A stretch of 64,000 nt of DNA from assembly GCF_000282595.1 (NCBI RefSeq), contig NZ_AKIZ01000041.1, positions 1-64,000 of the forward strand, in the 5' to 3' direction. A model generated the notes under the pieces. It was not told the DNA's origin. It searched no databases and saw only the letters and a list, made by a program, of their open reading frames with translations. A program made the position numbers and the translations under genes. Of the stretch, positions 17,369 through 41,746 are shown piece by piece (the stretch's first letter is position 1; each line of letters starts with the position of its first letter). The DNA is from Phyllobacterium sp. YR531 (GTDB lineage Bacteria > Pseudomonadota > Alphaproteobacteria > Rhizobiales > Rhizobiaceae).

Positions 17369-17424
17369 GAATTCGATTCCTCACTTTCAAGATCGGGAAG
17401 TCATCCTTGCCTTGAGGCTTGAAG

Positions 17425-21003: not shown

Positions 21004-22376
21004 TTTTGAGTGCCCGCGCCGTTTGCCGTGTCATTGTCAGGGCGGGGAGTGGCGATCACGACGATCTCCGTTCGCCGGTTCGCTTCTTTGCCCTCTTTAG
21101 TATCGTTGGTGTCGATCGGTTCAGACTCACCCTTACCTTCGAAAGCAATTTGATTTCCCGGTACGTAGGCTCCGAGAATTTTTGCAACGTTTTCTGCTCG
21201 CGCCCGTGAAAGGTCAAAGTTTGAAGGGAACCGGGCATTATTTCTGATCGGATCATTATCTGTATGACCGAAGACCTGCACTGCAAAATGCTCATCCGCA
21301 ATTGCCCTGCCTATACGATCTATCAAGCCTTGGAACTGCGGGGAAACATCTGCTTTGGCAGACGCGAAAAAGCCCGTATTGCGAAAACGCACTAGAACGC
21401 GGTTGCCGTTGCGCTGCGTAGTAACCAGTCCGCGATCCACTTCCGGTTGCAGAAAGGCCAGGAAATTACGAAGCCGATCTACTTGTTCGACGGGTTGAGG
21501 CGCAGGTTCAGCGACCTTGATCGATGGATTGCCTTCGGGCGGCGCTGCTGCCATTGCTACCATGACCGCATCTGAATCAGTGTTGAGCAACCGCAGAATT
21601 CCGATGTAACCGAAGGCACAAAGCAATACCAGAAAGCCGAGCAGGGCCGGATAGAGATTTTTGAAGCGGCCTTTTAGGAAGCGTGCATTAATGCCGCGCC
21701 AATGCGGAGAAACTTCCCGCTCGACGTCGCCCATTGTGGCCTGGAGCGTGCGGTAGAGGCTGTCCCTTATTTGCGAGAGTTCAAGAGCACCGCGAGCACT
21801 CACCCTCAACTTGCCCTTGAAACCAAGTGAAAGGCACAGATATAACAGCAGCAGAATATCGCGATTGCGGCCCGGATCCTTGTGAAAGTGTTCGAGCAAT
21901 TCAAAAAAACGTTCGCCACCCTGCACGTCGCGATGGAAGGTGGAGACAATACTGTTGGTTGCCCAATTGCTGGCACCGCCCCAACGCGTGGCCAGCACCA
22001 CATCATCTATCGTTGCACATAATGCATAGTGGGCGACGCGCGCATGTTGTGCATCAACATTGGCATTGGCGACCTTGCGTTCATAAGCACGCATTTCATC
22101 AATGACAGCGGTACGCAGCTGATCAGGATCAGGCCCCTCAGGCAGCCCTCGCAAATGATAGAGCAGATTGAGTTGGGGACGGGCCGCCGACACAAGAAAT
22201 GGCAAGCCTTTCGGCGTGCCATCAATCATTTCGACACCGCCTTCGGCCAAGGCAGCTTGCAGCGTGGTCGTTTCGGCAGAGTCCGCTGTGCCGGATTGAG
22301 CATTGCGACCTCGATCACCCCCGGGTTTGGGCTTTATGATCGTCGGTTCGCTGCGCCAGAACTTGTCATCACTCAT
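21000..22376 (-). CDS. tssL: T6SS TssL with a C-terminal OmpA peptidoglycan-binding domain
   Basis: A 458-residue 'specialised' TssL (ImpK/DotU). A cytoplasmic DotU domain spans about residues 55-225 (LNLLYHLRGL; CLSLGFKGKLR), followed by one transmembrane helix at 242-263 and a periplasmic OmpA-like domain over roughly 325-455. That domain has the peptidoglycan-contacting VFGHTDNDPI and the LSRARAENVAKIL helix. With this domain TssL can anchor the membrane complex to the cell wall itself. It overlaps tssM by four bases and follows tssK closely. Confidence 0.96.
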   Translation of the reverse strand: MSDDKFWRSEPTIIKPKPGGDRGRNAQSGTADSAETTTLQAALAEGGVEMIDGTPKGLPFLVSAARPQLNLLYHLRGLPEGPDPDQLRTAVIDEMRAYERKVANANVDAQHARVAHYALCATIDDVVLATRWGGASNWATNSIVSTFHRDVQGGERFFELLEHFHKDPGRNRDILLLLYLCLSLGFKGKLRVSARGALELSQIRDSLYRTLQATMGDVEREVSPHWRGINARFLKGRFKNLYPALLGFLVLLCAFGYIGILRLLNTDSDAVMVAMAAAPPEGNPSIKVAEPAPQPVEQVDRLRNFLAFLQPEVDRGLVTTQRNGNRVLVRFRNTGFFASAKADVSPQFQGLIDRIGRAIADEHFAVQVFGHTDNDPIRNNARFPSNFDLSRARAENVAKILGAYVPGNQIAFEGKGESEPIDTNDTKEGKEANRRTEIVVIATPRPDNDTANGAGTQK

Positions 22377-22380
22377 GGCG

Positions 22381-23718
22381 TCATGACTTTATAGCCCAAA
22401 GCTCAAATTCAATGGACGGAAACTCACCGGCCAGATGCAGGGCTATGGCACCGGAATTGCTGAGCTGTTTCCACAATGGTCCGTCCCGGTCGAGTTCGAA
22501 ATAACTCGTTCCCGGACGATAGGGCAGTTGACGCGGGGCCACAGGCAGAGGACGAACCGCGATGCCCGGAAGAGCGACATTGACCAATTCGGCTATACGC
22601 TCGACAGGCCCAACTTTTATCTGGCGAGGCAAAGTGCTGCGAAGCGCTTCCGATGGCATATCGCTTCGTATTGCCAGGACAAAGCCGCTGCCTACGAGAA
22701 GGTTGCGATCGGTGATCGTGCCAACACGTACACCATGCTTGCGCTCGTCGAGCGGTATCTCGACTGCGGAGCGCTCGAGCACCGAAGAGAGCGACTCGCG
22801 CAAATCAGCCAGAACCGGGTCGAATGATCCGCGCAAATCAACATGGCGGTATCCGGGAAAAACAGAGCCTCTGCGCCGTTCTTTGGTAAAGGTCGAAAGC
22901 TCACCGGCAAGCTGTGCACAAAGCACATAAAGCGCTTCAGGGTGCAGAGCCGTAAGATTTTCACGGTGATGACGGAAGGCAGCCTCATTCCGGTTAAGCA
23001 CCTGCAGAAACTGGAAATCGGATACTTCTGCCGTGCCGCGAATGGAAGGATCGCCCATTCGGTCGGCAATCGCTTCCGCACGATGAGACATGATGCCCAG
23101 AATTTCCGTGACGATGTTTTCCAGTTGCAACTGGGCCGCGCAATTCGTTGCGGACGCAATAAATGTGTCGTCAAGCACGACCGATTGATCCTGACGGACT
23201 TCGACGATGCGTGCGATTGCGATACGGTCATAGCCCGCCAGCTCTTCATCTGACAAAAGGAAGGTCAGCCGAAGCCTGCCAACATCCAGCAATGCCGAAA
23301 TGGAACTACCTTCATTCGTGTCCTGCACTTCATATTTTTGACGTGCATAGCGAATGCTACGGCCCGGCGCCGTATCACCACCTACTTCTGCCAAACCAGC
23401 TTGCTGCATCGGCAAGCAGAGATAGACGATGACGTTCTTGGTGCCTTCCTCCAACCGCAGTGCAGGAGGTAGATCGACAGGGCCGGGGGCTTCAAAGACT
23501 GTGCCATCCGGCATTACGCCACGTGCACTGGAAAGAGCAAACAGGCCGTTGCTTAAAAGCTGTTCATTGATAGCAAGACGCGAAACGCCCCACGGAAACT
23601 TTATCAGTTCGCGTGTTGCGGCTTTAATGAGTCTCTCGGTCCAGCGGTCCTGTTGCTGGAAGTGCTGCACCCGAAGGAACATGCCTTCCGACCAGACGAC
23701 GCGATTGTCATGTTCCAT
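22381..23718 (-). CDS. tssK: T6SS baseplate-membrane connector TssK
   Basis: A 445-residue cytoplasmic protein (ImpJ/VasE) that joins the baseplate (TssEFG) to TssL/TssM. The family start VVWSEGMFLRVQHFQQQDRW is clear. The ATG at 23718 is preferred to an in-frame TTG at 23721. It has no membrane segment. It lies between tssJ and tssL with short gaps, inside the leftward operon. Confidence 0.96.
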   Translation of the reverse strand: MEHDNRVVWSEGMFLRVQHFQQQDRWTERLIKAATRELIKFPWGVSRLAINEQLLSNGLFALSSARGVMPDGTVFEAPGPVDLPPALRLEEGTKNVIVYLCLPMQQAGLAEVGGDTAPGRSIRYARQKYEVQDTNEGSSISALLDVGRLRLTFLLSDEELAGYDRIAIARIVEVRQDQSVVLDDTFIASATNCAAQLQLENIVTEILGIMSHRAEAIADRMGDPSIRGTAEVSDFQFLQVLNRNEAAFRHHRENLTALHPEALYVLCAQLAGELSTFTKERRRGSVFPGYRHVDLRGSFDPVLADLRESLSSVLERSAVEIPLDERKHGVRVGTITDRNLLVGSGFVLAIRSDMPSEALRSTLPRQIKVGPVERIAELVNVALPGIAVRPLPVAPRQLPYRPGTSYFELDRDGPLWKQLSNSGAIALHLAGEFPSIEFELWAIKS

Positions 23719-23735
23719 CAATAAACACCGATCGT

Positions 23736-24254
23736 TTAATTGCTGGCGGACGCACTGACAGACAGTTTGCCGACAGAAATGCTTAGTTTTCCCGCCCCGG
23801 AAATAGGGGTCAGTGCGCGCCAGCGGGCGTTATCGATATCTCGGAACCCGGCGATGACACCAGCATAAGCACCGTCTACCCCGGGATTGATAACGAGATC
23901 AGCCGTCTGGCCCGGACGCACGGAAATGGTCTTGCGCTCTACAAGGTCTTCACCAAGCGCACTGCCGCCCTTCAACTGGAAATAATCGAGAGACTGAAAG
24001 CGCCCAGGTGATTTGAGCACAAAAACTTCAACAGCTGTTGGAGTAGCCGAGCCCGATGGCGATGGATTGGCTGAACTGCTGGCCGATACAACAACTGGGA
24101 TGGGTTCTTGATATTTTGGCCCGGTGTTCTCGGGAGTTGATGTGCAGGCAGAAAGAAACGTTACTGCCGCAGCAGCACAAGCTACAAGAAAAGAGCGTTT
24201 CGGTGATGTGTTGCGGCGACCAGACTCAGATAACTCAAGCGCTTCAAAACGCAT
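23736..24254 (-). CDS. tssJ: T6SS outer-membrane lipoprotein TssJ
   Basis: A 172-residue lipoprotein with hydrophobic signal SFLVACAAAAVTFLSAC and lipobox Cys37, then the TssJ beta-sandwich (EVFVLKSPGRFQSLDYFQL). It anchors TssM to the outer membrane. An upstream codon at 24272 is in frame, but a GGGAG Shine-Dalgarno sequence sits before the ATG at 24254. Order tssJ-tssK-tssL-tssM is the usual membrane-complex order. Confidence 0.93.
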   Translation of the reverse strand: MRFEALELSESGRRNTSPKRSFLVACAAAAVTFLSACTSTPENTGPKYQEPIPVVVSASSSANPSPSGSATPTAVEVFVLKSPGRFQSLDYFQLKGGSALGEDLVERKTISVRPGQTADLVINPGVDGAYAGVIAGFRDIDNARWRALTPISGAGKLSISVGKLSVSASASN

Positions 24255-24367
24255 ACTATTCTCCCGATACAATCCTTTTATGGACTTGACACAACCTAGG
24301 TGACTAATCTGGTTGTAACTTGCAGATAAGACACCTTCACGTCAACGTAATCTTGAGTTCGTGAGAT

Positions 24368-25714
24368 TTATGTTTTGGAAAAGAATTTACGCAGAAGTTT
24401 CATTAGTGCAGGTTTGCGCTTGCCGCCCTGTTGTTCCTCGAAAAGTGTTGCAGAAGCAAGAAATTCGTCCCAAAGGGCTGCTTTGCGAAGTGCCGGTATG
24501 GCTTTTGACTTGGTTCTGCTAGCAAGAACAGATGGATCGATAGCCTGCTGGACCTCTCCGATAAAGTCCAGCGTGGCTGCTGACAAATCGGTCTGGTAGT
24601 TGGTGATGGATCGAAAATCCCTTTCGATCAGCTTGATGTCGGCAGGCTCCGCCTCATTGATAAACTCGACAATGCGATGCATGCGTTGACTGTCTTCCGG
24701 GCTTGCTAATGAGAATATCCAGGGCGTGTCGCCAGCAATACCTTCCAGCTCAAGACGTGCCGCTGATGCATTCTTTCCCACATGCATCTCATAGAGTTCG
24801 CTCAAGGCGACTCGCATGACAGTGCCAGCTTTACGCAGAAATTGTTCTGGATCGAGATTGGGCTGCATTGTCGTATCCAATCCTGCCCCCTCCAGAAACG
24901 CCTGAAGCAATCCTGCTGCCTCCTGAACGGATACGGTTCTTGTGGATGCGCTTTTTGATGGCGTTGGCAGGGGATTGATGGTCTCCGGTACCGGAGGCGC
25001 TTGCTCGTACCGGACTGGCTGTTGCCGCACGAGGGGCTCTTCGTCATCACTGTCCCAATTATCCGGCAAAATAGGGCGGACCACCGGCAATTCAAACAAG
25101 GAATTTGCTGCAGGTGTCTGTTCGATTCTGTCGGATAGCGCTGAGGGGCGGGTGGTCCGGTAGGGCTTGATAATATCGACTTCTGTTTCTGGAGGTCCGT
25201 CCCAGCCGATGTCCGACACCCCCAACCCTTCGCGCGACGCAGGCTTGGCGGGTTGATCAAACAATTCGTCGTGGCTTTCGCCAGGCAACTGGCTGGTGGC
25301 TCCAACCCCTGCAGGCGCAATATCCGAAAGGATTGATGTCACGCTCGGTCCAGCCAACAGATCAGCACTGTTTTGTATTGAAGGCGCGCGGATTGCCGAA
25401 TCTTTTTGCATAACCAGCCTGAAACGGTAATCCGCAATCTCGATAGTGTCTCCGTCGAATAGCTGTTGACCATATTGGCGGTCTACGGCGATTCCGCCCA
25501 CGCTGACGCCGTTAGTGCTCTTATCAACGAGATATAAGCCCGTATCACGCTGCTCGAGAGTGCAGTGATGCTTTGAAACGACACGGCGGCTATCCTTGAT
25601 GACCCAATCGCAGCCTTCACCCCTGCCTATCGTAAAACGCTGGCTTTGAACTACCATGGAACCACTGAATGAAGTGTCGTTTGGATTGTTCGTGGCTTGA
25701 ATCTCGATTCGCAT
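24368..25714 (-). CDS. FHA-domain protein, divergent TagH/ImpI paralogue 1
   Basis: A 448-residue cytoplasmic protein. The N-terminal FHA domain (about residues 15-105) keeps the phosphothreonine-binding set: GR in TIGRGEGCDW, S and H in VSKHHC, and N in STNGVSV. A long proline-rich linker follows. The C-terminal 170 residues (GAGLDTTMQ onward) resemble the TagH/ImpI C-terminal domain only weakly. In other T6SSs, phosphorylated Fha recruits or activates the apparatus. It is the first gene upstream of tssJ and diverges from the caspase gene. The second copy at 29.7 kb has the more typical TagH C-terminus. The ATG at 25714 (MRIEIQATN) fits the FHA start better than 25729. Confidence 0.88.
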   Translation of the reverse strand: MRIEIQATNNPNDTSFSGSMVVQSQRFTIGRGEGCDWVIKDSRRVVSKHHCTLEQRDTGLYLVDKSTNGVSVGGIAVDRQYGQQLFDGDTIEIADYRFRLVMQKDSAIRAPSIQNSADLLAGPSVTSILSDIAPAGVGATSQLPGESHDELFDQPAKPASREGLGVSDIGWDGPPETEVDIIKPYRTTRPSALSDRIEQTPAANSLFELPVVRPILPDNWDSDDEEPLVRQQPVRYEQAPPVPETINPLPTPSKSASTRTVSVQEAAGLLQAFLEGAGLDTTMQPNLDPEQFLRKAGTVMRVALSELYEMHVGKNASAARLELEGIAGDTPWIFSLASPEDSQRMHRIVEFINEAEPADIKLIERDFRSITNYQTDLSAATLDFIGEVQQAIDPSVLASRTKSKAIPALRKAALWDEFLASATLFEEQQGGKRKPALMKLLRKFFSKT

Positions 25715-25923
25715 GGGTAGTTCCTGCATGTGGTAGTAAATTTGTACTGCTTACGACGGAAAAATAACTCGGATATCTTAGTCTTCGCCATAAGGCAGTT
25801 GCAAGTGCAGCAATATCTAGGCTATTTTTGTGTATACACTGTGATCTGCTGAAGATCGGATGAAAACCGGAGTATGCTGGGCGAGAACTGTCCGGTGATG
25901 CCCACAAGTTGAAGAGACAGTGA
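25715..25923. promoter_or_regulatory. Divergent promoter region between tagH1 and the caspase gene
   Basis: About 200 bases with no gene, so the promoters of the leftward membrane-complex operon and the rightward caspase/hydrolase genes must lie here. A perfect 10-bp palindrome GTGTATACAC occurs at 25830-25839 and could be an operator. No clear -35/-10 pair or sigma-54 site was recognised. Confidence 0.45.
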
Positions 25924-27333
25924 GTGTCCCCTTATGTGCAACATATCAGCCGACTGACCTCGCTTGTGCTTCGCACGGGTGGGTTGTTTGTTGTGCTGTT
26001 CTTTGCAATGCAAAGTGCACAGGCTGAAATATTGGGGCTTCCAGTTCAAAAGCGTATTGCTCTCATCATCGGCAATGCCGACTATCAGAACGTTGAAAAG
26101 CTCGTAAATCCATCAAATGATGCCAAAGGCATTTCGGATGCGCTACGGGCACAGGGCTTTGATATTTTCCCGGCAAGCAACACCACACGTGCTGAATTTG
26201 ACAGGATTTTTGAAGACTTCAAAACCCAAGCCAAAACAGCAGATGTGTCCCTTGTCTATTTCTCAGGGCATGGGTTTCAGTTGAATGGCACCAATTATCT
26301 AGTGCCAGTCGATGCTCATCTTAATGATCGGGAAAAAATCGTTGAAGAAACGATCAGTCTCGACAAGATTATTGCCGAAGTGCAATCGCCAGACCGCCAG
26401 ACGCTGATTTTTCTGGATGCATGCCGCAATAATCCCTTGCCAGGCGGCGGATCGGTCAATGCCGGTCTTGCACAGGTAACTGGCGGAGCAAACGTATTCA
26501 TAGCTTTTGCTACTCAGCCGGGAAATATCAGTTATGACGGGGTTAGCTCCTACAGCCCGTTTACCAAAGCCCTGCTCGATCATATCAATACGCCGGGTCA
26601 GGACATTTCCAATCTGATGATCAAGGTGAGGACGGATGTCGAGGCAAACACGCTTGGACGACAGTTGCCTTGGGATCAATCATCGCTGAAGAGACAGTTC
26701 TATTTCTCACCACCGGCTGAGATCGCTAATGATGGACAGACCAGCGTTGCAATGATTGGTCAGCCGGCAGTGGCAGGGCAAGGTCTGACGCGCCGGACCG
26801 ATCTTGGATCAATTATTGATCCGCCAGCCGGGCGCCTTACCGTTGCGCCACAGGGCGGAGCTGCAGCTTTTCCCCCGGCGATAAGCCCGGATGAGGGGGT
26901 TCCCCCTGTGATCTATATGCCGGAGGCGCCCGCAGAGATTTTTGGCCCTGAAAATCTGGTCTGGGGCCTGCAGCAGGAATTGCAGCGGCTCGGCTGCTAT
27001 ACTTCAGATATGGATGGCGTTTGGGGGGCAAGCTCCCGGGAAGCGCTCGCTCGGTACTATTCGAACAGGAACCTGAAGGTTACCGATACTGCACCAACGA
27101 CGTATCACTATGAAACGTTACGGCGCGAACCATCTGTCGTTTGTATCTCCGTGCCGCCACGTCAGGCCGTCGCGCCAGCACGCAATGGCCCGCGTGTCCA
27201 GGCAAAACCCAAAGCGCCGCGTCCGGTAACAACTTCAACGCAGCCCCAGCCGCAACAGGTTGATGTGCCATCCCGTGCAGCGCCAGCGCGCAAAAGCCTG
27301 CGTGATATCGGCATTGGTGGTGTGTATCGATAA
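25924..27333 (+). CDS. Secreted caspase-like (C14) protease with a peptidoglycan-binding domain
   Basis: A 469-residue protein. A signal peptide ends near residue 36 (LFFAMQSAQA). The caspase p20-like domain starts at KRIALIIGNADY, and its His-Cys dyad is intact: His116 in YFSGHGF and Cys167 in FLDACRNNP. A linker leads to a putative peptidoglycan-binding domain at about residues 343-385 (LQQELQRLGCY, MDGVWGASSREAL), then a basic, proline-rich tail. The start is a GTG at 25924. Caspase-fold proteins are common in rhizobia; the location inside a T6SS locus, exported to the periplasm, points to a role at the cell wall. The target is unknown. Confidence 0.85.
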   Translation: MSPYVQHISRLTSLVLRTGGLFVVLFFAMQSAQAEILGLPVQKRIALIIGNADYQNVEKLVNPSNDAKGISDALRAQGFDIFPASNTTRAEFDRIFEDFKTQAKTADVSLVYFSGHGFQLNGTNYLVPVDAHLNDREKIVEETISLDKIIAEVQSPDRQTLIFLDACRNNPLPGGGSVNAGLAQVTGGANVFIAFATQPGNISYDGVSSYSPFTKALLDHINTPGQDISNLMIKVRTDVEANTLGRQLPWDQSSLKRQFYFSPPAEIANDGQTSVAMIGQPAVAGQGLTRRTDLGSIIDPPAGRLTVAPQGGAAAFPPAISPDEGVPPVIYMPEAPAEIFGPENLVWGLQQELQRLGCYTSDMDGVWGASSREALARYYSNRNLKVTDTAPTTYHYETLRREPSVVCISVPPRQAVAPARNGPRVQAKPKAPRPVTTSTQPQPQQVDVPSRAAPARKSLRDIGIGGVYR

Positions 27334-27388
27334 TGCGGATCGTGGCTTGCAAGCTGGACTTGCTCGTCTTGCCTTTGGACGCTGATTG

Positions 27389-29674
27389 ATGAAGCAAGAA
27401 GGCTCGCTGCACACAATCAATCCGGATTTCAAACAGGCAAAGAAACTGTCTGGGCGCCGACGCGCAATCCGCCGTTTGGCACGCATTGTATCAATTGCTT
27501 TCGCAATTGCTGCTGTGGGATCGGCAGTGCATTTCATTCCGCGGTTTCTCGGTGAATCCGAAGATTTGACTGATCAGGCACTGGTCATTCCGGAAGGGGA
27601 AGTCATCGCTTCGGATAAAGAGGGTGATTTCGAGCTGGCGGCAACGGATGACAGGCGTGATGCGCTCTTGCTGCAAACGGTCAACAATGAAAAACCAAGG
27701 CCGCGCAAAAGTGAAATCCGCTTTCAGAAGAATGACAGCGGCTCGGAAATAAAGGGACCGATCTTTTACGTTTCGGATACAATGCTATCAGCTTCTGTGC
27801 GTCTGATGACGGCATTGCCTGCCACCCCGCAAGATTTCGCGCTTATGCAATCGGCTCAGGAGGCACCTCCAACCTCTGCAACACCAGTAAGCCAGCCGGA
27901 AGAGGGATCAATGCAGGGTGATACCGCTCCCACAGACGCTGGCTGGGAAGGTGCTGTATCGCCCAGAGAAACTGAACAGATCGGTCAAACTTCTCCGGGC
28001 AGTTCCAATAATATTGAAATCATTGATGAAAAGCAGCGCCCGCCGCAAAACCAGCAATATGTCATCAAGGTTCTTGCGGAGCGAAGCGTCACTGACGTTC
28101 TGACCGATGGACATACAACACCTGCTGAAAATGCTCATGTATCCGAAGCGGTTGCAAGACTTTTGAACATTCAACTGCTCCGCCCGGGTTATCTTGCCGT
28201 GTGGCGAACATCTGTTGTCGATCCGCAAAACCTGACGACGGCTCCAGTCCAACTTTCACTTTATGGAACCGAAGGTTTGATCGGCAGCGTGGCACGCGCC
28301 GATGACGGCACCTATCTGAGAATTGATGATCCCTGGAAGGATGAGAGCTGGACGGAGCTGGTGACTGGTGGCAAATCCGAAACCTCCGAACAAAACTTCC
28401 GCATCATGGATGGCATTTATAGTGCCGGGATACGCAACGATATTCCTGCCAATGTGGTCACTGAGACGATTACGCGAATGTCGCGTTTGTACGATCTGGG
28501 CAAGTTCATTTCTCCGCAAGACAAAGTCACGCTGCTCTATTCGGAAACGCCCCGCGACGAATTGAGCGAAAGTGGCCGTGTTCTTTACGTTTCCATCAAG
28601 CGTAGCGGGGAGACTTTGCAGTGCTATCTGCTTCGACCGGAGCGTGGTGGTGACTATTCGTGCATGACCGAAAGCGATACGACTTCAGGGCTGGGCGGTG
28701 CGGAAGGCTTTGTGCTGCCCGTGAAGGGCGTTTTCCGGTCAGGCTTTGGTCCGCGCGTTCATCCCATTTTGGGCTCGGTCAAGTTTCACGAGGGGGTGGA
28801 CTGGTCAGCACCCGCCGGCACACCGGTCTATGCGTCATTTGATGGCACCGTTTCCTTTGCCGGCACAAACGGTAATTTCGGCAACTTCATCAAGATCACA
28901 CATGCGGGTAACCGCGAAACGCATTACGCCCATCTGCAAGGGTTCGCTGGCAATATCGCAGTGGGAAAAGCGGTGAAAGCTGGCCAAATTATCGGCTTTG
29001 TTGGTTCCACAGGGCTGAGTACTGGTCCTCATCTGCATTTCGAACTGATCGCGAACGGCAGTTTGGTAGACCCTTTGGGTTCCAGTTACAGCGAAGTAGC
29101 ACTTGATGGAGAGGCAGCCAAACTCGTCCAGCGGATTATTCATGTCGAAAGCGGCGGTAATCCCAATGCTGCCAATCCTTTGTCATCTGCCAGCGGCCTT
29201 GGCCAATTCATCAACAGCACGTGGCTGCGTATGATGAATTCATACAGAGGCGATCTCGTTTCCAAGATGAGCGTAAGCGAATTGCTCGCCTTGAAGTTTG
29301 ACCCGACGCTTGCGACCGAAATGGTCATGAACCTTGCCAATGAAAACGAAGCAACGTTAAAGGCATCGGGAATACCCGGCACAGCCGGAAACCTCTATCT
29401 GGCGCATTTCCTTGGTGGTGGCGGCGCTGTTACCGTGCTTTCTGCAGCACCTGACACGCAATTGAGTTCGCTATTCGATCAGTCTGTATTTACCGCCAAC
29501 CCATTTCTTTATGGCAAAACGGCAGGATGGATTGTCGATTGGTCCAGCCGCAAAATGTCGGGCAGTGCAGGAGGGATGGTATCTCCCGTCTATCGCGAGG
29601 CGCGGATTAAAGCATCGCGATTCCGGCAGTACAGCTCTGCAATCGACGATATTCTTTCCAAGGTTCCTGGCTGA
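27389..29674 (+). CDS. Membrane-anchored peptidoglycan hydrolase with M23 endopeptidase and SLT lytic transglycosylase domains
   Basis: A 761-residue bitopic protein: a short basic cytoplasmic N-terminus, one transmembrane helix at about residues 30-50, and a long periplasmic part. The M23/LytM domain has the complete zinc set: His467 and Asp471 (HEGVD), HYAHL, and His548/His550 (HLHF). It is followed by an SLT-type domain with catalytic Glu587 (HVESGGNPNA) and GLGQF. Both active sites look functional, so it should cut both peptide and glycan strands. An in-frame TTG precedes the ATG by one codon. It follows the caspase gene by 55 bases and ends three bases short of the convergent tagH2. Confidence 0.9.
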   Translation: MKQEGSLHTINPDFKQAKKLSGRRRAIRRLARIVSIAFAIAAVGSAVHFIPRFLGESEDLTDQALVIPEGEVIASDKEGDFELAATDDRRDALLLQTVNNEKPRPRKSEIRFQKNDSGSEIKGPIFYVSDTMLSASVRLMTALPATPQDFALMQSAQEAPPTSATPVSQPEEGSMQGDTAPTDAGWEGAVSPRETEQIGQTSPGSSNNIEIIDEKQRPPQNQQYVIKVLAERSVTDVLTDGHTTPAENAHVSEAVARLLNIQLLRPGYLAVWRTSVVDPQNLTTAPVQLSLYGTEGLIGSVARADDGTYLRIDDPWKDESWTELVTGGKSETSEQNFRIMDGIYSAGIRNDIPANVVTETITRMSRLYDLGKFISPQDKVTLLYSETPRDELSESGRVLYVSIKRSGETLQCYLLRPERGGDYSCMTESDTTSGLGGAEGFVLPVKGVFRSGFGPRVHPILGSVKFHEGVDWSAPAGTPVYASFDGTVSFAGTNGNFGNFIKITHAGNRETHYAHLQGFAGNIAVGKAVKAGQIIGFVGSTGLSTGPHLHFELIANGSLVDPLGSSYSEVALDGEAAKLVQRIIHVESGGNPNAANPLSSASGLGQFINSTWLRMMNSYRGDLVSKMSVSELLALKFDPTLATEMVMNLANENEATLKASGIPGTAGNLYLAHFLGGGGAVTVLSAAPDTQLSSLFDQSVFTANPFLYGKTAGWIVDWSSRKMSGSAGGMVSPVYREARIKASRFRQYSSAIDDILSKVPG

Positions 29675-29677
29675 TCA

Positions 29678-30787
29678 TTATTTTTCGCCAGATGGTTCGC
29701 GGCCAATCTTATCGTCGTAAGCTTCCCCGAAATAGTGAAGAAAAACATCGAGGATACCATTTTCGTGTGGCAGGTTACGCTCGCTCCACGCTTTGACATA
29801 ACGGGTCCAGTAAGCTCCCTTACCGGAAAGCAGGGAGCCGGGTGTCGAAGCTTCTATTGCATCGGGGGATAGTTCGTTCAAAAGGCGGAATAAAGCGGTT
29901 TGCATCGCTTGAAATACTGCCTGCTCGTGCTGTTTCAGCTCGTCGATGGCCTCGGTAAAGCTGTTGCCCGCATCGAGATATTCAAGCTTGTTTGCGCCAA
30001 ACAGCGCTGCCAGAGCAGTGGTCGGCTCCGGAATGAATTTCATAGGGTTGTTATTATTCGCCTTCAGCACCGTTTGCCGGGTGCTGCGAATGAGAGAACG
30101 CATTTCTGCTCGTGCCGTCAGCAATTGCGTCAGTCCCGGTACGACCGTGCGAAATATCTGTCCAAGCTGTTCGGCAAACTCATCGTCCTGACGGCCAGCG
30201 AGCGCTTCAGGATCGAGACCGGCGCCGCGGGCGAAATGTTCTATGAAGCGTTCCCGGGAGGTCCCGGTTTGTGGGGTGGCACTTGGTCGGGGTTTAACGA
30301 CCTGTTGCGGCTTCTCGGGAAGTGCTGGTGCAGATTGGTGGTTTTGCATCGTCGCGAGTTGATCAACTCCGAGGAACATTGTGCGATCCTCCATCTCGCG
30401 CAATGGACCTTCGGTGTTGAGAGGCATGACAACGGTTTGCTCAAAATCTGAAGGTTGGGACACCTTTACCGGCTTTTCAAAGAAAACCCGCAATTGATAG
30501 GGGCCGATCTCAATGAGATCACCAGCGGAAAGGACGCGCCGTGCACTTTTCTGCACCTCCTCGTCATTGATCAAAAGACCATTCGCCGAGAGGTCTTCTG
30601 CCCAGTAAGAGTCCTCATCATATTCAACTTTACAATGTGTGGTTGAAACGAAGCGGCTTCTGTCTGGCAAAGTCCAATCTGCTTCTTCAGCACGACCGAT
30701 CGTGAAATTACGCTGGTCAGATACATATTCCGGTATGACGTCGTCACCGTGCAAGGAACGGTTCTCCAGTCTCAACACCAATCGCAT
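29678..30787 (-). CDS. tagH: FHA-domain protein TagH/ImpI (canonical paralogue 2)
   Basis: A 369-residue cytoplasmic protein. The FHA domain (residues 1-105) shows FTIGRAEEADW, STTHC and the loop SANGLLIN, so phosphopeptide binding is likely. The C-terminal 190 residues match the TagH/ImpI domain well, with the hallmark NNPMKFIPEPTTALAALFG. In the threonine phosphorylation pathway this protein is the substrate or reader of PpkA and the binding partner of TagF. It is a single-gene leftward unit placed between two rightward units, away from the other tss genes. Confidence 0.92.
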   Translation of the reverse strand: MRLVLRLENRSLHGDDVIPEYVSDQRNFTIGRAEEADWTLPDRSRFVSTTHCKVEYDEDSYWAEDLSANGLLINDEEVQKSARRVLSAGDLIEIGPYQLRVFFEKPVKVSQPSDFEQTVVMPLNTEGPLREMEDRTMFLGVDQLATMQNHQSAPALPEKPQQVVKPRPSATPQTGTSRERFIEHFARGAGLDPEALAGRQDDEFAEQLGQIFRTVVPGLTQLLTARAEMRSLIRSTRQTVLKANNNNPMKFIPEPTTALAALFGANKLEYLDAGNSFTEAIDELKQHEQAVFQAMQTALFRLLNELSPDAIEASTPGSLLSGKGAYWTRYVKAWSERNLPHENGILDVFLHYFGEAYDDKIGREPSGEK

Positions 30788-30864
30788 CTGCTTCTCCGTC
30801 TGGCCTTGTTCTTCTATAATCTATCCAAATAAAGTGTTGAATACCAAGACTATAGTGGATTTGG

Positions 30865-31356
30865 ATGATAGATAGTGAATGCGGTTGGTCATATTTGATA
30901 AAGTTCGCAGGCTTGAAGCGGGGATTGCATCATTTGATACTTCGAAACCTCACTGTCACGTTTGCTTTGGCAGCTACATATACAATGTTGGCGCCGGTAG
31001 CGCCCGCCCTCGCAGCATTCACCGTTTGCAACCAAACCTCTGATATCGCCAATGTTGCCATCGGTGAACAGATAGAAGGCGAAATGCGAACGGAGGGCTG
31101 GTGGGCGATTGCGGCCAATCGTTGTGCAGATGTTATCAAGGTGAAACTTACCAACCGCTATATCTATGTTCATGCCGTTGATGTGCAGGGGCGCCCTGTT
31201 CTTAAGGGCAGCGTGACGTTGTGTGTTGATACCAAAAAATTTCAGATCATCGGCAAGGATACTTGCTGGCAGCGCAACCATCTGCGAGGACTGTTTACAG
31301 AAGTTGATACGCAATCTTCCGACAATTGGACCTTGTTCTTAAAAGATGGATCATAA
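30865..31356 (+). CDS. Secreted DUF1036 protein
   Basis: A protein of up to 163 residues whose mature part (AFTVCNQTSDIANVAIGEQ, WWAIAANRCADV, YIYVHAVDVQG, LCVDTKKF) is a DUF1036 domain with four or more cysteines likely to form disulphides in the periplasm. A hydrophobic signal (about residues 29-50, ending APALA) precedes it. The ATG at 30865 is listed, but a TTG at 30934 eight bases after GGGGA would give a more typical signal peptide. Function is unknown. It could be a periplasmic accessory or a secreted factor of the T6SS, since pppA and ppkA follow on the same strand. Confidence 0.8.
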   Translation: MIDSECGWSYLIKFAGLKRGLHHLILRNLTVTFALAATYTMLAPVAPALAAFTVCNQTSDIANVAIGEQIEGEMRTEGWWAIAANRCADVIKVKLTNRYIYVHAVDVQGRPVLKGSVTLCVDTKKFQIIGKDTCWQRNHLRGLFTEVDTQSSDNWTLFLKDGS

Positions 31357-31368
31357 AAGGAAAATCAA

Positions 31369-31413
31369 ATGCTTAAACAGATTTTCTTGAGTGAATGGAG
31401 CCGACACGTTTAA
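31369..31413 (+). other. 14-codon leader ORF overlapping the pppA start
   Basis: An ATG preceded by AAAAGGA at a normal distance opens a 14-codon frame (MLKQIFLSEWSRHV). Its TAA stop overlaps an in-frame pppA ATG (TAATG, 31411-31415). The layout is that of a translated leader feeding ribosomes to pppA, whose own Shine-Dalgarno sequence is poorly placed. Whether it is translated cannot be seen from sequence; it may be chance. Confidence 0.4.
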
Positions 31414-32171
31414 TGTATAGTGATGGCAAGCCGGCAATTTCAGGCGAGTGGTTCAATTCCCATGGCGCAACGCATACCGGGCGAGTACGTCCGGTAAATG
31501 AAGACAGGTTTTTGGCAAAGCCATCCAATGGTATCTGGCTCGTTGCTGACGGGATGGGGGGGCATTCGCATGGCGATGTTGCGGCCTCGATGATAGTGCA
31601 GGCAGCCGGTAAAATAGAAAAGCCTGCCAGTCATTTAGATCTCGTAGGTGATTTCCTTGGGCAAATGCATGGAGTGAACGAGGACATTCGCAATCTCGCC
31701 CGGGAACATGGGTTGGGTGTCATGGGCTCGACGGTGGTCGGCCTGCTTATCGCACAGGATCAGTTCTCAGCCGTCTGGGCGGGAGACAGCCGGCTTTATC
31801 TTAATCGCGGAAATCGCATGACCCAGTTGACCAAGGATCACTCCGAGGTTCAGCAGATGATCGATAACGGTACATTGGACGCTGCAACAGCAGCAAGCTC
31901 CAAGCGCAAGAACGTGATCTTGCATGCGGTTGGAGTTCGAGAGGTTCCTTATTTCGAAACCATCGACGGAGAGATAAGGGATGGGGATATTTTTGTTTTA
32001 TGCAGTGATGGTCTGACGGCGCATTTGTCGACGCCGGATATACAAGAGATTGTTTTGTCCCATCCAGCAGAACCTGCGTGTCAATTGCTGATAGAAACGG
32101 CTTTACAGCGCGGAGGCACGGATAATGTCACCGTAGTTATCGTCGAATATCGCGGAAGCAAGCAGTCATGA
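31413..32171 (+). CDS. pppA: PP2C-type Ser/Thr phosphatase PppA
   Basis: A 252-residue cytoplasmic PPM phosphatase with all metal motifs: RPVNEDRF, VADGMGGH, GDSRLYL, LCSDGL and GGTDNVTV. It is expected to remove phosphate from the FHA protein and switch the secretion system off, opposing PpkA. Two in-frame starts exist: ATG 31395 and ATG 31413. The latter overlaps the stop of the leader frame and is preferred. Its stop overlaps ppkA by four bases (ATGA), so phosphatase and kinase are made together. TagF at 16-17 kb carries a decayed copy of the same fold. Confidence 0.94.
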   Translation: MYSDGKPAISGEWFNSHGATHTGRVRPVNEDRFLAKPSNGIWLVADGMGGHSHGDVAASMIVQAAGKIEKPASHLDLVGDFLGQMHGVNEDIRNLAREHGLGVMGSTVVGLLIAQDQFSAVWAGDSRLYLNRGNRMTQLTKDHSEVQQMIDNGTLDAATAASSKRKNVILHAVGVREVPYFETIDGEIRDGDIFVLCSDGLTAHLSTPDIQEIVLSHPAEPACQLLIETALQRGGTDNVTVVIVEYRGSKQS

Positions 32172-34042
32172 GCCAGGATACCGGCAAAAGTGCGGGCAGT
32201 ATCAAACCCGGAACGCGATTGAACGATATTTACGAGATCACTGTGCTCTTGGCTGTCGGTGGCATGTCGGAGGTCTATAAGGGCCACAATATCCAGACGC
32301 TGGACGAAGTTGCTATCAAAGTGATCCTGCCGCATCTGGCCAGCGACGAACATGTTATTTCACTGTTCAAACAAGAAGCGTCGATTCTTAATTCCCTCGG
32401 GCATGATGCGATTGTCCGCTACCATGTCTTTTCAATTGATCGTGCCACTGGCACAGCTTATTTGACGATGGAACTGGTAGAAGGCCCGTCGCTATATGAG
32501 CGGATAAAAGAACGGCCTCTCAGCCTGGCAGAAGCTGCCAAATTGATCAGCCGTATCGCATCAGGTTTGAAAGTTGCGCATGGTCGCGGTGTCATTCATC
32601 GCGATATCTCGCTTGATAACATTATCCTGTCCGGCGGTAATGTCGAAGGCGCCAAGTTGATCGATTTCGGTATTGCCCGTCTTGGAATTGGCGGTGATAG
32701 AACACTGCTCGCCGGAAGCTTTGCCGGCAAGTACAACTATGTCTCCCCCGAACAGCTTGGGTTGTTTGGTGGTGAGGTGCATGAACCCAGTGATATTTAT
32801 AGTCTGGGGCTGGTTTTTGCCGCAGCCTTGCGGGGTAAGCCCATTGATATGAGCGGTACTCATGCGGATGTTGTACGCAAGAGGCAGTCGATCCCTGATC
32901 TTTCGACGATACACCCGGCGGCTCGAGCTATAATCCAACGAATGCTTCAGCCGAACCCGTCGCTCAGACCGAAGAAAGAGGAGATTATTGATGCCCTCAG
33001 GCCAATGATCGCTGCCAGTAGGGAGCCAACACTGCGCCGTTCGGGCAACTTGCCCGGCAGTACGCCGTTAGCGGGGTCCAGTCAGAGTAGTCCAACGCAG
33101 GGAGGGGCAGGTAAATGGATTGGTTCACTTATTCTCGTGCTAATCGTCGCGGGTGCCGGTTGGTTTGCCTATAAAAACCAAAGCCTGATCCAATCCTATC
33201 TGACTGCTAAAGCACCCGCACCGGAGCCCACTGCTGGCAAGTCAGATTTCAAGGTTGATGCTGATCCGGGTGCCGCTCCACCGGTGCCAGCACCGCCGGT
33301 ACCGTCAAAAACGGCAGAAGCTCATCGCCAGGAAAAACCGGCAGATCGGCCTATGGTTGAAGCGCCACCGAAGCCCGAACAACCCGCCACGCCATCAACA
33401 GAACCTGCGCAACCGGAGCAAACTCCAGCAAAACCGAATGACCCTCCACCGGCAGTTTTAGGCGAACTTGAATGGGTGCGGCAATTCTCCGGTGGTCCAT
33501 GCTTTTTCGCCAATAGCACCAAAACCGCACCTGAGAAAATCAATATTGAAGGCTTTGCGCCACGGGTAGAGCCATTTTACGAAATGGAGAGGGCGTTCCG
33601 CAGTGCGTTCAACTACGAGCCAACGATTCACGTTCGCCAAGTTTCTGCCGCTCAGTGCGATGCGGTCACTTACCTCAACAGCGCGAATGCCAATTCCGGT
33701 AGGCCGAAAATCGCGATGAAGAATGAGGTGCTTGGGGCAGGGGATGCTCTGACGGCGACAATCAGTGATGTGGAAAAAAATCAGCTATATGTCCTGTTGG
33801 TTCGCGACGACGGCGAGGTCGATATCGTGAACACAAAAAGCGGCGCTGATGGCAATTTTACATTGAATGTCAAGCTGGCAGCGCCAGCCAAGCAGGCCTC
33901 AATTCCCTATATGCTTATTGCTGTGGAGTCGGATGCAACGCTGGAAATAAAAGCTGGCAAGGACATTTTCAAAGATTTGGAAGCCATTCGCCAGCAAAAC
34001 AAGCCAATTGTTACGGTAAAATACCTCCGGCAACAGGGTTAG
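32168..34042 (+). CDS. ppkA: Membrane Ser/Thr protein kinase PpkA with a novel periplasmic domain
   Basis: A 624-residue kinase. The domain (about 20-275) has the glycine loop AVGGMSEVYKG, Lys51 in VAIKV, HRD 144-146 and DFG 166-168. The catalytic loop reads HRDISLDN, so the usual lysine after HRD is serine at 148. A transmembrane helix at about 316-334 is followed by a proline-rich linker and a periplasmic domain (residues about 430-620) with two cysteines, resembling none I can name except loosely DUF4384-like beta folds. It should phosphorylate the FHA protein in response to an envelope signal. It is convergent with tssG, overlapping by four bases. Confidence 0.93.
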   Translation: MSQDTGKSAGSIKPGTRLNDIYEITVLLAVGGMSEVYKGHNIQTLDEVAIKVILPHLASDEHVISLFKQEASILNSLGHDAIVRYHVFSIDRATGTAYLTMELVEGPSLYERIKERPLSLAEAAKLISRIASGLKVAHGRGVIHRDISLDNIILSGGNVEGAKLIDFGIARLGIGGDRTLLAGSFAGKYNYVSPEQLGLFGGEVHEPSDIYSLGLVFAAALRGKPIDMSGTHADVVRKRQSIPDLSTIHPAARAIIQRMLQPNPSLRPKKEEIIDALRPMIAASREPTLRRSGNLPGSTPLAGSSQSSPTQGGAGKWIGSLILVLIVAGAGWFAYKNQSLIQSYLTAKAPAPEPTAGKSDFKVDADPGAAPPVPAPPVPSKTAEAHRQEKPADRPMVEAPPKPEQPATPSTEPAQPEQTPAKPNDPPPAVLGELEWVRQFSGGPCFFANSTKTAPEKINIEGFAPRVEPFYEMERAFRSAFNYEPTIHVRQVSAAQCDAVTYLNSANANSGRPKIAMKNEVLGAGDALTATISDVEKNQLYVLLVRDDGEVDIVNTKSGADGNFTLNVKLAAPAKQASIPYMLIAVESDATLEIKAGKDIFKDLEAIRQQNKPIVTVKYLRQQG

Positions 34043-35043
34043 CTTGCAGCTTTGGTTGTTTTGTCCGGGTCAAAAACTGCGTCAACGCTGTCATTGGCAG
34101 CTGGGGCTTGGCGCACCCAAAGGTCCCAGCCAAGTCGCCCAACGGGCGATCCACTGTGCATACGGGCTTCCGGAATATCTTCTTTTGCAAGGATCAATTG
34201 TATTTCGAACGAAAGTGATGGGCCGCAATAGAGCCGCGTCAATTCTGTCAATTCGGCAAATTTTTTCTGGGCAGGCATCAATGACAGATATTCGCCATAA
34301 CGAAGTGGACCAATCGAGATGCGGATCGCACTCCTTCGGTCCGCATAGGATGATCCAGCTATTGCGGTTACGCCGAGTAAGGCATTTTCCTTTGCATCGC
34401 TGCTGAGTTGTGTTTGTTCCGACGTGTCCACGGACAGCCAGCGCTTTTGAAACTGGTGCACGGTCACTTGGTACCCAAGAAACTCGGCAAGCATGAGCCT
34501 CAGATTAGTTGCTGTGCGTCGTTGATTGGCAAAAAACCCCGAGAAATAGAGTGGAACCTCGGGCGGGATGACCAGCTGATCGACCAGCTTTGGAGAAGCC
34601 AAACCAAGCAGGGCATAAATGCTGCGCGTTACTTTGTTTTTCGGGCCGATGCCGAAAAGCTGGATAAGGCTTGATAGCCGATATTTTCGTGAACTCGCGA
34701 AGAATAACTCTCGCAGTTCTGCAGCAAAAATCTCAAGGAAATCAAAATAGCTTGAGCTACGCAGTCGTTTTTCATCAAGCGCGCGATCCGTATAAACAGC
34801 AGGTAATGCGGCGACAGGTCCAACCAGTCCGATGTAATTGGCCAGAATGTTGACTTTTCCGCCCTTTCGCTCCGCCGGAGAAAGTGCTGTCGCCACGTGA
34901 TTATGTGTGGCGTTGGACGTTAGAGATATCGAACTGGCTTTTTCACCAGCAAGCTCAAGCAACAACTGTGCTGCATCCGGATCGAACAGATGTGGCTCAG
35001 ACTCGAGCCGATCAATCAATGAGTGTTCGGAGGCATCACTCAA
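34039..35043 (-). CDS. tssG: T6SS baseplate protein TssG
   Basis: A 334-residue baseplate wedge protein (ImpH/VasB) that forms the TssE-TssF2-TssG complex. The core LIQLFGIGPKN and LYFSGFFANQRR is family typical. Translation starts at a TTG that overlaps the tssF stop (TTGA), so it depends on coupling. The N-terminus reads SLIDRLESEPHLFDPDAA. It is the last gene of the tssA-to-tssG leftward run and meets ppkA head-on. Confidence 0.95.
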   Translation of the reverse strand: MSDASEHSLIDRLESEPHLFDPDAAQLLLELAGEKASSISLTSNATHNHVATALSPAERKGGKVNILANYIGLVGPVAALPAVYTDRALDEKRLRSSSYFDFLEIFAAELRELFFASSRKYRLSSLIQLFGIGPKNKVTRSIYALLGLASPKLVDQLVIPPEVPLYFSGFFANQRRTATNLRLMLAEFLGYQVTVHQFQKRWLSVDTSEQTQLSSDAKENALLGVTAIAGSSYADRRSAIRISIGPLRYGEYLSLMPAQKKFAELTELTRLYCGPSLSFEIQLILAKEDIPEARMHSGSPVGRLGWDLWVRQAPAANDSVDAVFDPDKTTKAAS

Positions 35044-36842
35044 AGCAGCACCTCGTCGGCGGTACGAGGCGGAAATCTCACCACGGGCAGAGCCAACCCG
35101 CTAAGTCTTACGGTCAGACGGGAGAACGTGTTGATTGAGGCATAGAGGCCGAAAAAGTGGGATAGTACCGAGCCGAAAAGATAGGCTTGTCCGCGGTCCA
35201 TCAACGCATCGGTAAATTCCACTGTGACGTCAACGCCACTTGCTATGGTCCCGTCACTCAGACGTGCGGTAGCCTTGCGACTTGTAACTGATGCAATGGC
35301 TTCGATCATTGAGCGCATTTCGGGCGCCCGCCGGAAATCATAAAGCCGCAACATGCTCTTGAGTATTTCCGGATCACCGCTGGTCAACGGTAAATGGTTC
35401 AACGAAAGATGCGAGATGAGTTTCCAGTAGGATTCACCTTCAGATTCAAACCGATGCGTATGTGTGGGCGGTAGCAGGCAATCGATCTTGCCGATTTCTC
35501 CTACCTTTGCCTGTGCGCCAAAATAGGGTTGTCCGCCACCGAAAGGCAACAACTCCGGCAAGCCGCGATTGAGGCATAAGGCATCAATGGAAGCGACCAG
35601 ATGATCTTCGGGCGCGGCAGGATCAAGGTTCATATCGACAAAGCGAATCTTGGCCTTGAATGATTTACTGTCGTCGTCGATCTCGCGCTTATACTGCCAG
35701 AACATATCAGCATTTTTTTCATTGGACTGTTTTTTCCGCCCAAAGAACGGCGGCACTTCTTTGCGATTTCCTTTCTGATCAGAAATATCGACCCGTTCAA
35801 TCGCATAAATTTCACGGGTGGAATTGTAGCGCGCGTCCGGGAGCAGGTCGTATTCATTCTGCGTATGGTTCACCGATATGGGTTCCGCCCGCTGTTCGAA
35901 CAGATTTATGACCGGTGCGCAGTGCAGATCGAAACTTGTCAAATCAACGGCTTTTGCAAGCGCGTTGGCGGGGGTGTCCAGGTAAAAGAAAATATGAAAT
36001 TCATTGCCTTTTACGCTGGCCAGAAACGACTTCAGACCACTCAATTCAAAGAAGAGGAATTTTTCCGGTAATGCAAAAAACTCAGCGAGTAGACGAAATC
36101 CAGGAAAGCTCCTGTTCGAATATGGCAGCATGCGCCTGTCATGCTCAAAGCCCAAAGGTTTCAGGGCATTTGGGGGAAGGCGAAGTGCCGCTTTGTCTTC
36201 CCTGTGTCGACCAATTGCTATGCCCAACGTATGGTTGAAAAGAAGCTCATATAGAGACGCACCTGTTACAAAGGGAGCCTTGATGAAGAATGTCAGTTTA
36301 TCAAGATTTAGTTCCGCGATGCCTGTGATGGGGCCGGTTGTCTTGACGCTCAACGACAGACATGACATCGGCGCAAGATCGGGCACTGGAGGCGCCACAT
36401 AGGGTGGTTGTGCCAGTTTGCACTCGGTCAAAGCAATGGGACTTAACGTCAGAGATTGTGTGGTTGTAAATCGGCATGTATCGCCACGCACCGGTTCCGA
36501 ATCTACGACGGTGTTCCGCGGCAATTCAATTGTTTCGTCCTGCTGCTCCGATGGATTGAATTTGAGAACAGACATTGAGGGGATTTGCGCCAGATAGTGC
36601 GGATAGAGCGATTCAAGCAATGTTTCTGTCAGTTCGGGAAAGTCATCATCGAGTTTTTGCCGGACGCGTGCTGCACTATAGGCAAATCCCTGGATAAGGC
36701 GCTCGACATGAGGATCGTCGACAGCTTCCGGTGTCAAACGCAAGCGACCGGCAACTTTGGGGTGCTGATGCGCGAAAACAGAAGCGCGCTTGCGCAACGC
36801 GCCAAGCTCCCGGTTGTACCAAGCAAGAAATCGATTAGCCAT
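35040..36842 (-). CDS. tssF: T6SS baseplate protein TssF
   Basis: A 600-residue protein (ImpG/VasA) with the standard start FLAWYNRELGALRKRASVFA and the conserved VERLIQGFAYSAARVRQKLDD. TssF carries the wedge arms that contact TssG and the hub. Length is normal. Its ATG lies within the last codons of tssE (8-base overlap), and its stop overlaps tssG by four bases. Confidence 0.96.
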   Translation of the reverse strand: MANRFLAWYNRELGALRKRASVFAHQHPKVAGRLRLTPEAVDDPHVERLIQGFAYSAARVRQKLDDDFPELTETLLESLYPHYLAQIPSMSVLKFNPSEQQDETIELPRNTVVDSEPVRGDTCRFTTTQSLTLSPIALTECKLAQPPYVAPPVPDLAPMSCLSLSVKTTGPITGIAELNLDKLTFFIKAPFVTGASLYELLFNHTLGIAIGRHREDKAALRLPPNALKPLGFEHDRRMLPYSNRSFPGFRLLAEFFALPEKFLFFELSGLKSFLASVKGNEFHIFFYLDTPANALAKAVDLTSFDLHCAPVINLFEQRAEPISVNHTQNEYDLLPDARYNSTREIYAIERVDISDQKGNRKEVPPFFGRKKQSNEKNADMFWQYKREIDDDSKSFKAKIRFVDMNLDPAAPEDHLVASIDALCLNRGLPELLPFGGGQPYFGAQAKVGEIGKIDCLLPPTHTHRFESEGESYWKLISHLSLNHLPLTSGDPEILKSMLRLYDFRRAPEMRSMIEAIASVTSRKATARLSDGTIASGVDVTVEFTDALMDRGQAYLFGSVLSHFFGLYASINTFSRLTVRLSGLALPVVRFPPRTADEVLL

Positions 36843-37326
36843 GATGTGTGCCGCCGATCATGAAATGCCGGGTTGTCGGGTCTAATGATGTATCGAAAAT
36901 GATTGGCTCTATACCATCAGGAAACAGCATTTCCGCTTCAATACGCAGATCCAGCACCCGATCCTGATCATTGCGATTTTTACCAAGTCCAACCTGCACC
37001 TGAGAAAGGCGAGGGTCGAATGCCACAATCACCTGCCTTATTGCCTCCGCAAGTCGCAAGCGTTGCTCCGTCGTTGCCAGCATCAAGCCGTGAAAACCGG
37101 CAGTACCAAACCTCAAAAGGCTGGTGTGCAGTTCTTCAAACTCTTTTTCAATAGAATGGGGCCATTGCTGCGCATTGAGCAGCGCCTCTATGTCCTTGCG
37201 AACACTTTCACGGATGTTGTTAATCTTTTGTCGAGGCGTCGTGGGCTGATCAACAGTCATATCCGGATCATGATCAATCAGACGATCAAGGACCGATTCA
37301 AACGATATCCTGCTGCTTACCGCCAT
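36835..37326 (-). CDS. tssE: T6SS baseplate gp25-like protein TssE
   Basis: A 163-residue homologue of phage T4 gp25, which starts sheath polymerisation on the baseplate. The conserved strands and helix LRFGTAGFHGLML and LRLAEAIRQVIVAFDPRL are present. It begins two bases after the tagJ stop and overlaps tssF. The first 40 residues (TTPRQKINNIRESVRKDIEALLN) are the usual N-terminal helix. Confidence 0.93.
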   Translation of the reverse strand: MAVSSRISFESVLDRLIDHDPDMTVDQPTTPRQKINNIRESVRKDIEALLNAQQWPHSIEKEFEELHTSLLRFGTAGFHGLMLATTEQRLRLAEAIRQVIVAFDPRLSQVQVGLGKNRNDQDRVLDLRIEAEMLFPDGIEPIIFDTSLDPTTRHFMIGGTHHG

Positions 37327-37328
37327 GT

Positions 37329-41734: not shown

Positions 41735-41740
41735 TTGATG

Positions 41741-41746
41741 CCTCCT
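41741..41746 (-). promoter_or_regulatory. Strong Shine-Dalgarno sequence of tssB
   Basis: AGGAGG on the minus strand, at good spacing from the TTG at 41734-41732. It fixes that TTG as the tssB start, since no ATG is available near the conserved N-terminus. Confidence 0.75.

Follow-up and report, generated by a model that had tools for sequence, protein, structure and literature searches.

How type VI secretion systems (T6SSs) cross the wall of the cell that builds them, and how they are told that the envelope is ready, is known in few species (TagX and MltE; TagQRST and RtkS). In enteroaggregative Escherichia coli the housekeeping lytic transglycosylase MltE is recruited by the T6SS and is proposed to open the producer's own wall. 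The same has been proposed for TagX of Acinetobacter, a T6SS-linked L,D-endopeptidase (PMC5061870). In other species assembly is controlled by a kinase, a PP2C phosphatase and an FHA protein, through phosphorylation of Fha or TssL (PMC3953482, PMC6082577). Here we describe a T6SS locus in a 64,000-nucleotide stretch of Phyllobacterium sp. YR531 (contig NZ_AKIZ01000041.1, positions 1 to 64,000; hereafter the window), in which genes for a predicted wall-cutting enzyme and for a phosphorylation switch stand in one block between two structural operons.

The block lies between tssG and fha and has six genes, in the order caspase-M23SLT (+), FHA2 (–), DUF1036-PP2C-kinase (+). The first encodes a secreted caspase-like (C14) protease (25924..27333, +; Pfam, 146 bits) and ends 52 bases upstream of the gene for a membrane-anchored dual peptidoglycan hydrolase with M23 and SLT domains (M23-SLT; 27386..29674, +; Pfam, PDB profile matches and alignments). 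FHA2/TagH, with FHA and T6SS_FHA_C domains (29678..30787, –; Pfam, 166 bits), is followed by a secreted DUF1036 protein (30865..31356, +; Pfam, 106 bits), a PppA-like PP2C phosphatase (31395..32171, +; Pfam, and Stp1-like in NCBIfam) and a PpkA-like transmembrane Ser/Thr kinase (32168..34042, +; Pfam). The PP2C gene overlaps the kinase start by 4 bases, and the kinase gene overlaps tssG tail to tail. The initial annotation of the window had described a module of seven genes interleaved with core tss genes. Pfam confirmed all seven and the operons on both sides; however, FHA1 (24368..25729, –; Pfam FHA and a weak T6SS_FHA_C match) is the first gene of the fha-tssJ-K-L-M-tagF operon (15980-25729), so that the extra block counts six genes, which stand together between two operons and do not alternate with tss genes. 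Its count of four periplasm-facing products was correct, since hydropathy analysis gave an anchor in M23-SLT, signal peptides in the caspase and the DUF1036 protein, and one transmembrane segment in the kinase. It also knew of no described pathway with this combination. The kinase, phosphatase and FHA belong to a known threonine-phosphorylation pathway (TPP), but for a T6SS module with caspase, M23-SLT and DUF1036, or with ExbD, no description was found in the open-access literature. On balance it seems somewhat more probable than not that the block combines an envelope module dedicated to the T6SS with a threonine-phosphorylation switch (PpkA-PppA-Fha).

The distribution of the block was determined in 199 genomes of the order and in a phylum sample of 398 genomes, both drawn evenly and not exhaustive (genomes are denoted G, locus records L). 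Full-length M23-SLT was scored at a threshold of at least 313 bits, the next match, at 201 bits, covering M23 only. Gene maps were made with phmmer and the window proteins, which can miss divergent genes, so that the absences of TssJ and of the caspase reported below mean that these were not detected. Within the order tssK was present in 32/199 genomes and full-length M23-SLT in 14/199, all 14 of them with tssK (hypergeometric, 4e-13 by genome; by genus 9/9, 4e-7). The phylum sample contained full-length M23-SLT in 16/398 genomes, all Alphaproteobacteria, and 11 of these were new carriers (11/11 with tssK). Overall, 25/25 carriers were positive for tssK, including those in which the two are unlinked. 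M23-SLT lay inside the T6SS locus in 21 of the 25; in G417 and G443 its block was more than 1 Mb from tssK, and in G022 and G510 it was on draft contigs that leave T6SS linkage undecided. The periplasmic domain of the kinase gave a strong match in 20/199 genomes of the order, again all with tssK (20/20). M23 proteins on Labrenzia plasmids match M23-SLT over 56% of its length, in one record at a non-T6SS locus, and were left uncounted. These counts show a block confined, as judged by sequence matches, to T6SS-bearing Alphaproteobacteria, with parts that are inherited together. M23-SLT, the T6SS-type DUF1036 protein and the kinase are thus not found mostly outside T6SS loci, and the genes form a T6SS module, as had been proposed, rather than accidental neighbours.

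The switch could instead be an ordinary TPP, with the three periplasmic genes linked to it only through block-wise T6SS mobility and engaged in general envelope maintenance. The TPP parts are indeed standard (PMC3953482, PMC6082577); five loci of a second T6SS type, here called type B (single TssC, no detectable TssJ), have the kinase without full-length M23-SLT (G091, G124, G158, G165 and G187); and the DUF1036-caspase-M23-SLT genes of G417 and G443 are remote from tssK. We nevertheless regard this explanation as unlikely. Every M23-SLT carrier has tssK even when the two are unlinked, the T6SS copies differ from the generic, nearly ubiquitous M23 and DUF1036 proteins, and DUF1036 and M23-SLT genes can overlap within one gene run with tssL-tssM and the kinase.

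Plasmid pT1293b of Phyllobacterium sp. T1293 carries the same genes in the same order, with 78% identity in M23-SLT; in the accessible part of the T1293 strain paper a T6SS is mentioned and the block is not (PMC12451606). The window locus adjoins hflX-mazG, so that the copies in these relatives lie in different genomic surroundings. The gene order recurs in other genera and families at approximately 37–58% protein identity, and this recurrence, together with the gene-for-gene match on the plasmid, argues that the block is not due to chance. Between the window and pT1293b the proportion of nonsynonymous differences (pN) was well below that of synonymous differences (pS) for every gene, the caspase being the fastest (62% identity); synonymous divergence (dS) was saturated in most gene pairs, and therefore only purifying selection can be claimed. 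In Phyllobacterium sp. 628 (L243:6315-8596) M23-SLT is annotated as two overlapping reading frames, which may reflect a frameshift or a sequencing error.

The hydrolase has a charged cytoplasmic N-terminus and an N-terminal transmembrane anchor at residues 34-52, as predicted from hydropathy. Alignments showed both of its active sites to be intact in the window protein (M23 residues H468, D472, H549 and H551; SLT residue E588). Its SLT domain scored 20.2 bits in Pfam, just below the cut-off of 21.3; the family profile matched the lytic transglycosylase gp144 of phage phiKZ (3bkh, E 9e-15), and the M23 half matched NMB0315, ShyA and Csd3 in a PDB profile search. Among 28 aligned full-length copies Glu588 is retained in 28/28, and the M23 ligands are lost only in the clade of G095, G110, G136 and G180. 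In type-B loci without the full-length protein, single-domain stand-ins were found near tssK or the kinase (M23 only in G187, SLT only in G158); a single-domain M23 or SLT protein can occupy the place of an absent M23-SLT. The catalytic residues, the predicted periplasmic anchored topology and the restriction to T6SS genomes are those of a TagX-like, T6SS-dedicated hydrolase, and the wall-opening role suggested earlier would fit this protein. Elsewhere in the window, approximately 25 kb from the block, a PBP5-type D-alanyl-D-alanine carboxypeptidase (59476-60840) is probably a housekeeping enzyme.

DUF1036 proteins have a predicted signal peptide and four invariant cysteines in the alignment. 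An AlphaFold2 model is a beta-sandwich (predicted local distance difference test score, pLDDT, 85) for which no significant structural relative was found in the PDB. A TssJ-like fold was considered and rejected, since nothing in the PDB matched significantly and the matches listed did not include TssJ. A DUF1036 paralog is near-universal (191/199 Hyphomicrobiales genomes, with or without a T6SS), and M23-SLT is accompanied by a distinct copy that mostly scores higher than this paralog. In most loci the DUF1036 and M23-SLT genes are neighbours. Mesorhizobium ciceri has the run tagH-tssL-tssM-PP2C-kinase-DUF1036-M23, with an overlap of 4 bases between DUF1036 and the M23 start, which ties the hydrolase to a TssL-TssM pair. 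Mesorhizobium-type loci (L247:7425-20016; G064, G096, G123 and G189) have a second tssL-tssM pair with tagH, PP2C, kinase, DUF1036 and M23-SLT, and the second set adjoins a T6SS of another type. In Serratia the periplasmic protein RtkS, encoded beside fha-pppA, activates PpkA; it may serve as a functional analogy for DUF1036, no homology being implied. The block gives DUF1036, which turned up in a single open-access paper, a functional context.

The position of a small secreted protein directly beside a peptidoglycan hydrolase would also suit an effector-immunity pair, with M23-SLT as an antibacterial, peptidoglycan-degrading effector and DUF1036 as its immunity protein. Peptidoglycan hydrolases are numerous among known T6SS effectors. 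This explanation appears quite improbable, as M23-SLT is membrane-anchored and contains no VgrG/PAAR-type domain in Pfam, and no VgrG is encoded beside it in the window genome, whose VgrGs lie on other contigs. Across families it keeps its sequence and its place along with the apparatus, unlike fast-changing effectors. DUF1036 paralogs, for their part, occur regardless of T6SS, and in G086 a T6SS-type DUF1036 protein is present with no hydrolase detected.

The signalling half of the proposed module is that of a TPP: a membrane Ser/Thr kinase, a PP2C phosphatase and FHA proteins within the T6SS locus. The kinase has one predicted transmembrane segment (residues 317-335) and a periplasmic domain at approximately residues 425-624. 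The model of the ectodomain (pLDDT 91) can be read as two domains, one BON-like and one Ig-like; the BON-like call follows the order of elements in the model, and the Ig-like part has PDB matches. PknB-PASTA models matched the kinase part only. The ectodomain was rejected as a wall binder, since it is not of the PASTA type and no wall-binding fold was among its matches. In trees, FHA1 grouped with the FHAs of module-less loci of the Agrobacterium imp type (support 89/76) and FHA2 with type-B FHAs (100/99). FHA2 as an in-situ or recent duplicate of FHA1 was rejected (approximately unbiased test, p-AU 1e-5), and its placement with imp-type FHAs was disfavoured (p-AU 0.015). FHA1 is, on its sequence, native to the imp-type backbone.

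The locus is therefore of mosaic descent. By Pfam gene content, gene order and trees, its backbone is of the imp type: the window groups with imp-type systems in the TssK and TssC1 trees, and two tssC genes and tagJ also mark it as such. The trees of FHA2, the kinase and M23-SLT place the window copies with or within type-B T6SSs. Imp-type loci without the module were found in G025, G021, G178, G110, G136, G390, G518 and G553, and G110 and G136 have it in a separate type-B locus. The imp-type loci of the window, G077 and G347 carry the module at the same tssG/fha junction and in the same layout, and form one clade for M23-SLT (100/100) and the kinase (100/99); one acquisition thus explains all three. 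TssJ was found in 3/3 module-bearing imp-type genomes and was undetected in 8/8 module-less imp-type genomes tested, and TssJ and module may have been gained together. It was also undetectable in 13/13 hydrolase-bearing type-B genomes tested, which links the hydrolase to TssL/TssM. These results show, to the extent that trees and gene content can, that the block in this imp-type backbone descends from a TssJ-less type-B T6SS; transfer from type B to imp type is the parsimonious direction and is not proven. The locus illustrates how T6SS types exchange regulatory and envelope blocks. In several type-B or module-bearing loci a very large protein (1400-2100 residues) is encoded beside tssK (L241:20236-26583, L227:12758-16966), and one copy has a weak bactofilin match.

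Apart from FHA1, the tssJ-M operon encodes TagF (TagF_N plus a C-terminal half), TssM, TssL with OmpA, TssK and TssJ (15980..24272, –; Pfam), the last with the lipobox FLSAC (23736-24272). On the other side of the block lie TssG, F, E, TagJ, TssC2, TssC1, B and A (34039..42989, –; Pfam), and then TssH (ClpV), Hcp and an OmpA-family protein (43252..47183, +; Pfam). With tssA, B, C, E, F, G, H, J, K, L, M and hcp in the window and two VgrGs on other contigs, the genome has a complete T6SS set (core tssA-M with hcp and vgrG). In TagF (15980-17368) the unassigned C-terminal half, approximately 300 residues after TagF_N, may correspond to the PP2C-like part of TagF-PppA fusions, and would then come on top of the separate PP2C gene.

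The caspase of the window has an intact H116/C167 dyad, as expected of a C14 protease, a predicted signal peptide and a C-terminal PG_binding_1-like segment, and is the only one in this genome. In Rhodobacteraceae-type carriers the dyad has degenerated, and the maps of G054 and G159 show no caspase near the hydrolase. Within the order caspases are widespread and not T6SS-specific, although often linked to a T6SS; a single-query search of a named genome collection gave no match. A role in anti-phage defence was rejected, since PADLOC yielded nothing beyond a weak match for the caspase and generic ones for the kinase. The initial annotation had suggested that the kinase may sense the cell wall, that the protease and the hydrolase may open or check peptidoglycan where TssJLM forms, and that the protease may act on the hydrolase or on a part of the apparatus. 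A model of this kind, with the caspase as activator, we consider very improbable: the dyad is intact here, the gene lies just upstream of M23-SLT and the M23 part resembles the ShyA/NMB0315/Csd3 group, which includes self-inhibited forms, but some other carriers have a degenerate caspase or none detected near the hydrolase, TssJ is undetectable in the tested type-B carriers, and the kinase ectodomain is a T6SS-specific BON/Ig-like domain with no known wall-binding fold.

For the reading that we favour, a dedicated envelope module under a phosphorylation switch, the following order of events may be proposed. The bitopic M23-SLT would cut peptide cross-links with its M23 domain and glycan strands with its SLT domain at the assembly site, letting the periplasmic part of the TssL-TssM complex insert, by analogy with TagX and MltE. 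DUF1036 would be a periplasmic partner that restrains or positions the hydrolase, or links it to the kinase ectodomain; the caspase would be an accessory that varies with lineage and may serve to process or tether something in the periplasm. The kinase would read the periplasmic state through its BON/Ig-like domain and phosphorylate an FHA or TssL target, PP2C would reverse this, and FHA2 would recruit baseplate parts, so that firing follows envelope readiness. Several points weigh against this scheme. Loci that are transferred as wholes could account for part of the conserved synteny. The module is missing from many T6SSs, among them imp-type relatives within the order, so that T6SSs in general do not require a dedicated hydrolase. 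The roles of DUF1036 and the caspase are guesses, the former having no structural relative and the latter being degenerate in Rhodobacteraceae-type loci. Finally, placement of the window TssK with type B narrowly escaped rejection (p-AU 0.053); the imp-type assignment is supported instead by TssC1 and by the presence of two tssC genes and tagJ.

Further genes accompany the module in other carriers. ExbB, ExbD and TonB-like genes were found near the DUF1036/M23-SLT genes, or in the same T6SS region, in ten genomes or records (Rhodobacter aestuarii, Tateyamaria, Paracoccus aminophilus, G284, G506, G417, G443, G022, G159 and G510), together with a small secreted protein that was not detected in R. 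aestuarii. The set ExbB-ExbD-ExbD, TonB-like and small secreted protein is seen in type-B loci at L215:2853-6145, L207:9372-13399 and L241:12857-15965. In G417 (L207:9372-18272) and G443 it forms, with DUF1036-caspase-caspase-M23SLT, a stand-alone block on the same chromosome as the T6SS. The TonB-like protein has an N-terminal transmembrane segment with a histidine, a Pro/Ala/Glu/Thr-rich linker in most copies checked, and a C-terminal domain that shares its family with the ectodomain of the kinase (59-110 bits); in the window genome this family is present as the kinase copy only. A tentative possibility is that the window block is the trimmed form of a larger machine, in which an ExbB-ExbD-ExbD/TonB-like complex driven by proton motive force drives or times wall opening by DUF1036 and M23-SLT for TssL-TssM in T6SSs with no detectable TssJ. 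If so, the domain shared by the energised arm and the signalling kinase would let both read the same periplasmic partner.

The block is a conserved candidate answer, for Alphaproteobacteria, to the questions of wall crossing and envelope readiness: an enzyme predicted to cut the wall in two ways, its putative small secreted partner and the assembly kinase travel together. Each part can be tested in variants that occur naturally, namely loci with no TssJ, with a dead M23, with a degenerate caspase or with an ExbBD/TonB-like set in addition.

Compared with described systems, the locus is closest in backbone to the imp/hcp cluster of Agrobacterium tumefaciens (PMC3702570), with which it shares the order tssA-B-C-C-tagJ-E-F-G-fha-K-L-M-tagF and a divergent clpV-hcp. 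It differs in that the module separates tssG from fha, in that tagF is not followed by a kinase gene, and in its TssJ, which is absent from A. tumefaciens (PMC3702570). With the TPP of A. tumefaciens, Serratia marcescens and Pseudomonas aeruginosa (PpkA-PppA-Fha, TagF) it has in common a membrane Ser/Thr kinase with a periplasmic domain, a PP2C phosphatase, FHA and TagF. Here, however, there are two FHA genes of different descent, and the ectodomain of the kinase, BON/Ig-like and T6SS-restricted, is a distinct one; TagQRST were not seen in the locus, and DUF1036 holds a place comparable to that of RtkS, for which no search was made. The halves of M23-SLT are homologous to domains of ShyA, NMB0315 and Csd3 and of phiKZ gp144, none of which, as far as was found here, joins both domains or is T6SS-linked. 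As with TagX and MltE, the hydrolase appears to be dedicated to or recruited by a T6SS, but in this case one anchored protein unites an M23 endopeptidase with a gp144-like SLT domain.

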